Assembly (NCBI GenBank): GCA_947626795.1
Contig: CANQTH010000004.1
Span: 1 to 64,000, forward strand
DNA length: 64,000 nucleotides
Origin: an uncultured Lachnospiraceae bacterium
GTDB taxonomy: Bacteria > Bacillota > Clostridia > Lachnospirales > Lachnospiraceae
Direction: 5' to 3'
In this document: positions 34,725 through 51,119 of the stretch, piece after piece
Numbering within the stretch: the first letter of the stretch is position 1
How the letters are laid out: every line of letters starts with the position of its first letter
Notes under the pieces: model-generated
What the model saw: the letters and a program-made list of their open reading frames with translations, nothing else
Told to the model about the DNA's origin: nothing
Databases searched by the model: none
Position numbers and translations under genes: made by a program

Positions 34725-34755
34725 GTAACAGTTCAGCCTTCGGCCGCACAGTTAC
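34725..34755 (+). repeat. Left-half copy of GTAACAGTTCAGCC repeat family
   Basis: GTAACAGTTCAGCCTTCGGCCGCACAGTTAC. Confidence 0.8.
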
Positions 34756-34832
34756 TTTTGGCGTCTTTTTGTGCGCATCCCCCGAAAGGGAGTTCTGGCA
34801 AACGGAACCTGTCATCGACGTTTGCCATCGTC

Positions 34833-34967
34833 TTAACAGAACAAATTATACCCGACCAGCAGCAGGGCAAAAATGATCAATACCCCAAGCAGGTCGTTCG
34901 GCAGCAGGAGCATGACCGCCATCCCTACCGCGATCCAGAACAGGATAAATCCAAACAGCCGTTTCAC
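34833..34967 (-). CDS. Small membrane protein sORF (~44 aa, GTG start; alternative TTG start further upstream), absent from the ORF track
   Basis: Manual translation: (V/M)KRLFGFILFWIAVGMAVMLLLPNDLLGVLIIFALLLVGYNLFC*; two hydrophobic helices. Confidence 0.55.
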   Translation of the reverse strand: MKRLFGFILFWIAVGMAVMLLLPNDLLGVLIIFALLLVGYNLFC

Positions 34968-35025
34968 GCCATCACCGAAAAAAGCATCTGTCAAGGATAA
35001 TATATGCCTTCCTTGTGAAAAAAAT

Positions 35026-35172
35026 GTAACAGTTCAGCCTTCCGGCTTCACAGTTACGGGATCCGGCTCATTGAAAGTTTGCCTTCGGCAAAGAGCCGGA
35101 TCCCCACTCGGCAAAATTGATACGTTCTTACGGACTTTGCAGCAAGTGCAAAGTCCTGGGCTGAACTGTTAC
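35026..35172 (+). repeat. Full-length structured intergenic repeat, copy 1
   Basis: TIRs GTAACAGTTCAGCC (35026-35039) and GGCTGAACTGTTAC (ends 35172); internal stems GGGATCCGGCTC/GAGCCGGATCCC (35058-35069/35093-35104) and GGACTTTGC/GCAAAGTCC (35132-35140/35148-35156). Confidence 0.92.
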
Positions 35173-35317
35173 AACAATTCAGCCTTCCGGCTTCACAGTT
35201 ACGGGATCCGGCTCATTGAAAGTTTGCCTTCGGCAAAGAGCCGGATCCCCACTCGGCAAAATTGATACGTTCTTACGGACTTTGCAGCAAGTGCAAAGTC
35301 CTGGGCTGAACTGTTAC
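35173..35317 (+). repeat. Full-length structured repeat, copy 2 (exact 145-bp tandem duplication apart from the first bases)
   Basis: Base-by-base comparison of 35041-35172 with 35186-35317 shows no differences. Confidence 0.92.
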
Positions 35318-35345
35318 AACAATTCAGCCTTCCGGCTTCACAGGG
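35318..35345 (+). repeat. Truncated third copy of the 145-bp repeat
   Basis: AACAATTCAGCCTTCCGGCTTCACAG then divergence. Confidence 0.85.
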
Positions 35346-35353
35346 CGTTACCC

Positions 35354-35794
35354 TCACGCCTCCTCTTCCGCTTCTTCCGCCGGGATGTTCAGCTTCTGCG
35401 CCAGATCCTGCGCCGCCGCTTCCTGCGCCGCCACGTCCACGGACCTTTTCTCTTTTTCCGCGGATCTTCCCGCGAACTTGTTCACAAAATCCGGAACCAT
35501 GTCCAGGATCTTCGTGATGCTGTCCTGATTCTTGATATTCACAAGCTTCGTGCATCCGTCCTGGATGACAAGCACGGCGCTCGGCGTGATCTTCCCGCCC
35601 AGGCCGCCCGCCGCGTTATTCTTCTTCTCCTGGCAGAACGCGCCCGCCGCCACCCCGAACGAGACTTCGACGAGCGGCAGGATGATGGTGTCCCCGATAT
35701 GCACGGCCTCCCCGACGACGGTCTTCGTCGTGATGAAGCTGTCCATTCCCTTGAACAAAGACTGTACGGTTGCGTTAAAATTATTTTCCTGCAT
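35354..35794 (-). CDS. GerW family sporulation protein (YtfJ-like)
   Basis: VQSLFKGMDSFITTKTVVGEAVHIGDTIILPLVEVSFGVAAGAF. Confidence 0.93.
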   Translation of the reverse strand: MQENNFNATVQSLFKGMDSFITTKTVVGEAVHIGDTIILPLVEVSFGVAAGAFCQEKKNNAAGGLGGKITPSAVLVIQDGCTKLVNIKNQDSITKILDMVPDFVNKFAGRSAEKEKRSVDVAAQEAAAQDLAQKLNIPAEEAEEEA

Positions 35795-49076: not shown

Positions 49077-49117
49077 TATGCCCTCCATTCCTCCTAAGCC
49101 TTATGGAGGCCCTCTTT

Positions 49118-49192
49118 TACGGATTCCCTCCTGGCTAAATCTTTGTATCCTTACGGACTTTGCAGCAAGCGCAAAGTCCTAAGCTGAACTGC
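49118..49192 (+). repeat. Right-half copy of the GTAACAGTTCAGCC repeat family
   Basis: ACGGATTCCCTCCTGGCTAAATCTTTGTATCCTTACGGACTTTGCAGCAAGCGCAAAGTCCTAAGCTGAACTG. Confidence 0.8.
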
Positions 49193-49198
49193 CGCTGT

Positions 49199-50849: not shown

Positions 50850-51014
50850 CGTAATCGTTCCCTGCCCTCCCGCATCCGCGCGCCGCCGCTCCGGCAATCC
50901 GCCAGGCCTTGGCGCCTTCCGCGCCGTTTTACCGTAAGTCAATTTATCGGCAAGGACATTATAACCGATTCTAATTTTACTTGCAACTTATTTTCACGGC
51001 TCCGCGTAACCCAT

Positions 51015-51119
51015 CGTAACGATTCAGCCTTTGGCAAAGAGCCGGATTCCCTCTCGGCAAAATTTACACATTCCTATGGACTTTGCGGCAAGCGCAAAGT
51101 CCTGGGCCAAACGATTACG
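51015..51119 (+). repeat. Internally deleted member of the GTAACAGTTCAGCC repeat family
   Basis: CGTAACGATTCAGCCTTTGGCAAAGAGCCGGATTCCCTCTCGGCAAAATTTACACATTCCTATGGACTTTGCGGCAAGCGCAAAGTCCTGGGCCAAACGATTACG. Confidence 0.88.

Follow-up and report, generated by a model that had tools for sequence, protein, structure and literature searches.

ERIC of the enterobacteria, NEMIS/Correia of Neisseria, and RUP of pneumococcus are short, gene-less repeats with terminal inverted repeats, which lie between genes in high copy number and have strong secondary structure. The repeat described here, which we read as a non-autonomous mobile element (MITE), was found in a 64,000-nucleotide stretch of DNA from an uncultured Lachnospiraceae bacterium (hereafter, the window). 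It has all of these traits, but differs from the three in its ends, in its 8-bp duplication, in its link to the IS66 family, and, as far as the sampled genomes go, in its restriction to a single bacterial family; we know of no sequence relation between it and any of them. It also resembles the REPIN/RAYT elements in being palindromic, dispersed, and intergenic, but is distinguished from them by its 8-bp target duplications and its IS66 ends. The insertion sequence ISDge4, which belongs to the ISBst12 group, is actively transposing, with the ends GTGACTACTCAGCA/GTAACTGCTCAGCA and an 8-bp repeat (PMC12898284). Its GTAAC-type ends with TCAG (GTAACTGCTCAGCA, compared with GTAACAGTTCAGCC in the MITE) and its 8-bp direct repeat are like those of our element, and the single-transposase organization of the ISBst12 group recurs in the IS elements found in this study. 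We consider it very probable that the MITE is mobilized in trans by the DDE transposase of a single-gene IS66-family element of this group.

The element occupies positions 35026–35172 of the window on the plus strand (147 bp; covariance model score, 167.6 bits) and consists of a left end, three hairpins, and a right end. Read directly, its outermost 14 bp form a perfect inverted pair, as claimed in the initial annotation: the left terminal inverted repeat, GTAACAGTTCAGCC, lies at 35026–35039 and the right one, GGCTGAACTGTTAC, at 35159–35172, both given on the plus strand. With at most one mismatch, the 14-bp end occurred 249 times in the genome and its reversed control once, and the 3′ hairpin, with at most three mismatches, occurred 165 times against none for the control; these frequencies are not due to chance. 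The element has no coding capacity, and a transposase gene could not fit within it. It is followed by a tandem copy (35173–35317, plus strand), which had been described as exact; the tandem arrangement holds, but 144 of 145 bases match the first copy, and the left tip is altered, reading ACAACAA in place of GTAACAG. A truncated third copy, also recognized previously, is a 26-bp stub of the left end (35318–35343, plus strand, from sequence reading), which stops approximately 10 bp from the stop codon of the right flanking gene. The array sits between two converging ORFs, which we take from sequence knowledge to be rpmB (ribosomal protein L28; 34455–34640, plus strand, with synteny in relatives) and a gerW/YtfJ-like sporulation protein gene (35354–35794, minus strand).

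The window also holds family members that were absent from the initial annotation. A 31-bp remnant (34725–34755, plus strand) contains hairpin I only, is flanked by the perfect 8-bp duplication TTTTGGCG, and reads as an internally deleted MITE; partial copies lie at 49094–49195 and 50999–51118 (both plus strand; covariance model scores of 57 and 67 bits, respectively). A small membrane-protein-like ORF on the minus strand (34830–34985) adjoins gerW. In other same-genus genomes, this ORF is preceded by a conserved AGAGCATATATTAG...TAATATATGCTCT hairpin, and the MITE array adjoins a degenerate version of that hairpin.

To characterize the insertion sites, flanks were compared for 109 unique end-to-end copies from the same genome and other genomes. 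A perfect 8-bp duplication was observed in 50 of the 109, compared with 0.4 expected from re-paired flanks, and duplications of 7 bp were found in three copies and of 9 bp in none. Overall, 71 copies matched at seven or eight of the eight duplication bases, and 38 matched at fewer than seven. These target-site duplications show that the element has transposed. When units bounded by exact 8-bp duplications were surveyed (0.04 expected by chance), they measured 31, 35, 49, 57, 62, 101, and mainly 133–148 bp, and there were longer units of 157, 161, 216, 289, 936, 1813 (three loci), and 2287 bp. The 31-bp units with duplications were considered as tiny transposons and rejected, because they end in internal-arm sequence; deletion between short direct repeats would therefore be a simpler origin. 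At the level of the interval, rather than of the exact base, no full copy was present downstream of gerW in 27 of 27 other same-genus genomes, in most of which rpmB lies near this interval. The mobile, non-autonomous nature proposed initially is thus borne out by dispersal, 8-bp duplications, IS66-family ends, and, at interval level, the lack of a full copy in the other species checked. Between G017 and G028, which are mostly 99.5–99.9% identical, no pair differing in the presence and absence of a MITE was found.

A transposon sharing the MITE ends, as is characteristic of MITEs in general, was found in a partly deleted form in the same-genus genome G025. This 936-bp, internally deleted IS66 element (L230, 1177–2112) retains pieces of a transposase, has the ends GTAACAGTTCAGCCTTCCGGCT..., and is flanked by the perfect 8-bp duplication AATTTTTT; its start is identical to MITE positions 1–22 (22/22 bp), and G025 itself carries related MITEs. 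At a second locus (L223), tnpC ORFs that match PF03050 stop approximately 45 bp from GTAACAGTTCAGCC; this tnpC is frame-broken and split over two frames, and its right end was not found. A third element (L224) is 1813 bp long, with a single IS66 ORF (NCBIfam IS66, 261 bits) and GTAACTGTTCAG ends, and exact 8-bp duplications flank elements of this type at three loci. Among the IS66-family elements of G018 and G026, the ends are GTAACAGTTCAG and GTAACTGTTCAG, and the duplications measure 9 bp and 8 bp. The GTAAC ends, the 8-bp duplication, and the single-gene IS66 transposase match the ISBst12 group. Among the elements recovered with the exact 14-bp MITE end, none was an intact full-length TnpC element, L230 being deleted and L223 split. 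The MITE differs from the ISBst12 group in having no transposase and in its interior, which bears no relation to those of the IS elements recovered; because the likeness is confined to the ends, it gives no support for an origin of the MITE from these IS copies by deletion.

We infer that TnpC binds the MITE and moves it in trans. The candidate mobilizer, a TnpC from the IS66 elements with GTAACNGTTCAG ends, would recognize GTAACNGTTCAGCC ends and insert the element elsewhere, producing an 8-bp target duplication. In the genome of the window, a 144-contig draft, there were no matches to PF03050 and none to the L207 TnpC query at an E-value of 1e−8; as no IS66 gene is detectable there, its copies look orphaned. 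They are probably left over from an earlier burst whose transposase can no longer be detected, and may now change through tandem duplication and internal deletion. Meanwhile, TnpC searches of plasmid records gave only distant IS66 matches, in five records, and searches of phage records gave none. Weak 501-aa PF03050 matches in G013 and one candidate in G002 were rejected as partners, as they were without MITE-type ends, and a 2722-bp inverted pair (L168) was rejected as a transposon because it encloses ABC transporter genes. A 2287-bp element with inverted ends (L148, 3311–5597; GTTACAATTCACGGCC) and the duplication AACGGTTC is possibly another transposon with related ends.

In hairpin I (35026–35057), the left end of the MITE pairs with the internal arm GGCTTCACAGTTAC. 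Hairpin II (35058–35104) has a 12-bp stem, GGGATCCGGCTC/GAGCCGGATCCC, around TTTGCC-TTC-GGCAAA (element positions 33–44/68–79, with the inner stem at 53–58/62–67), and hairpin III (35132–35156), GGACTTTGCA-GCAAG-TGCAAAGTCC, is the best-conserved module, with a 10-bp stem at element positions 107–116/122–131; all three are given on the plus strand. The nested stems are present as first described, except that the one given as 9 bp has 10 bp. As a single strand, the element has a folding energy well below that of shuffled sequences (RNA z, −8.6; DNA z, −8.0; equalled by 0 of 200 shuffles). Among 103 distinct copies from other genomes, two-sided changes were observed in 40 of 42 pairs over four stems, and cells with double changes numbered 472 compared with 110 in shuffles, the signal being lost when the partner was slid; this alignment was fitted to the covariance model, which favours structure, and related copies are not independent, so that the covariation counts are not probabilities. 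In a MAFFT alignment that was not fitted to the model, the values were 26 pairs and 90 cells, compared with 12.7 and 26.2. The left end tracks the internal arm (TA in 21/21) above the right end (9/21).

Such covariation could also be expected of a conserved cis-acting RNA (an attenuator, a terminator, or a small RNA) spread by recombination. The positions of the copies fit this explanation to some extent, because the nearest gene edge is somewhat more often a stop than a start codon (37 vs 20) and because antisense copies outnumber sense copies in other genomes (20 vs 8; p 0.036). However, no Rfam family reached its gathering score for the element, G-U pairs were not in excess of A-C mismatches (50 vs 75; 72 vs 91), the copies in the genome of the window showed no orientation bias (14 vs 15), and dispersal comes with 8-bp duplications. 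We therefore regard a cis-acting RNA as improbable. The initial annotation had suggested a selected RNA/DNA structure; the stems do covary, but a strand-specific RNA role is unsupported, given the lack of both a G-U excess and an orientation bias in the same genome. Instead, A-C mismatches no rarer than G-U pairs, equal orientations, and the location of 81 of 90 copies outside predicted ORFs (with crude ORF calling) favour maintenance at the DNA level. The better reading is that the hairpins are kept as DNA-level palindromes, by selection or template switching, rather than as RNA of one strand. Covarying hairpins without a sign of RNA selection thus offer a testable case of such maintenance. 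More doubtfully, the three-hairpin layout may mark a long-lived non-autonomous lineage and owe its compensatory change across approximately 39 genera to a use of the DNA fold (cruciform) as such, for example by the transposase or in limiting read-through, and not just to conservation of the ends.

A MITE of another DDE family is very unlikely: IS6, ISL3, IS256, and IS1595 likewise make 8- or 9-bp duplications, but the elements found here with identical or nearly identical ends carry IS66 transposase genes or fragments, and to our knowledge the ends of those families are not GTAA. Least probable is a REP/REPIN-like element moved via single-stranded hairpins by a RAYT (an IS200/IS605-type tyrosine transposase), a reading raised in the initial annotation and compatible with strong hairpins, intergenic sites, and high copy number, because RAYT/IS200 elements make no target duplication, whereas 50 of 109 copies here have a perfect one, and because a DDE transposase is indicated by the 8-bp duplications and by the GTAAC ends, which the MITE has in common with IS66 elements.

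The family that we attribute to mobilization by an IS66-family transposase is dispersed both within the genome and among relatives, as had been supposed. In the 2.89-Mb genome of the window, a covariance model trained on 32 diverse copies gave at least 149 matches to copies or fragments (150 candidates scored), and a DNA search gave at least 42 near-full-length copies with 91–100% identity (40 of 266 candidates scored). The family makes up approximately 0.7–0.8% of the genome, as estimated at 147 bp per copy, some copies being fragments. The mean pairwise identity of 38 end-to-end copies from this genome was 90%, a value more in keeping with a burst long ago than with recent activity. In a sample of the bacterial family, with one genome per genus as a rule and strict filters that make the counts lower bounds, matches occurred in 39 of 250 genomes, or 39 of 249 genera, including the genome of the window. 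In a sample of the class, 2 of 291 genomes matched; both belong to the same family and one is the genome of the window. Named records with the 3′ hairpin were nearly all Lachnospiraceae among the matches listed, and the left end had no exact match in viral contigs. In the literature searched, no comparable MITE was reported, either for IS66 or for Lachnospiraceae. The family defined here is therefore apparently an undescribed repeat, linked to the little-studied ISBst12 transposase group, although MITEs as such are a known and ordinary kind of element; its structure is unusually well preserved.

Several contigs (L091, L110, L133, L142, L145, and L155; Lachnospiraceae IMSAGC_002) end at or inside MITE copies, and the ends of G017:C67 and C17 likewise stop at or within them. 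The repeat is therefore a likely cause of contig breaks, and probably accounts for some of those in assemblies of such gut bacteria. At G000:C1:17793–17951 (L031), three tandem units with a 59-bp period, comprising the 3′ hairpin and the right end, form a derivative array.
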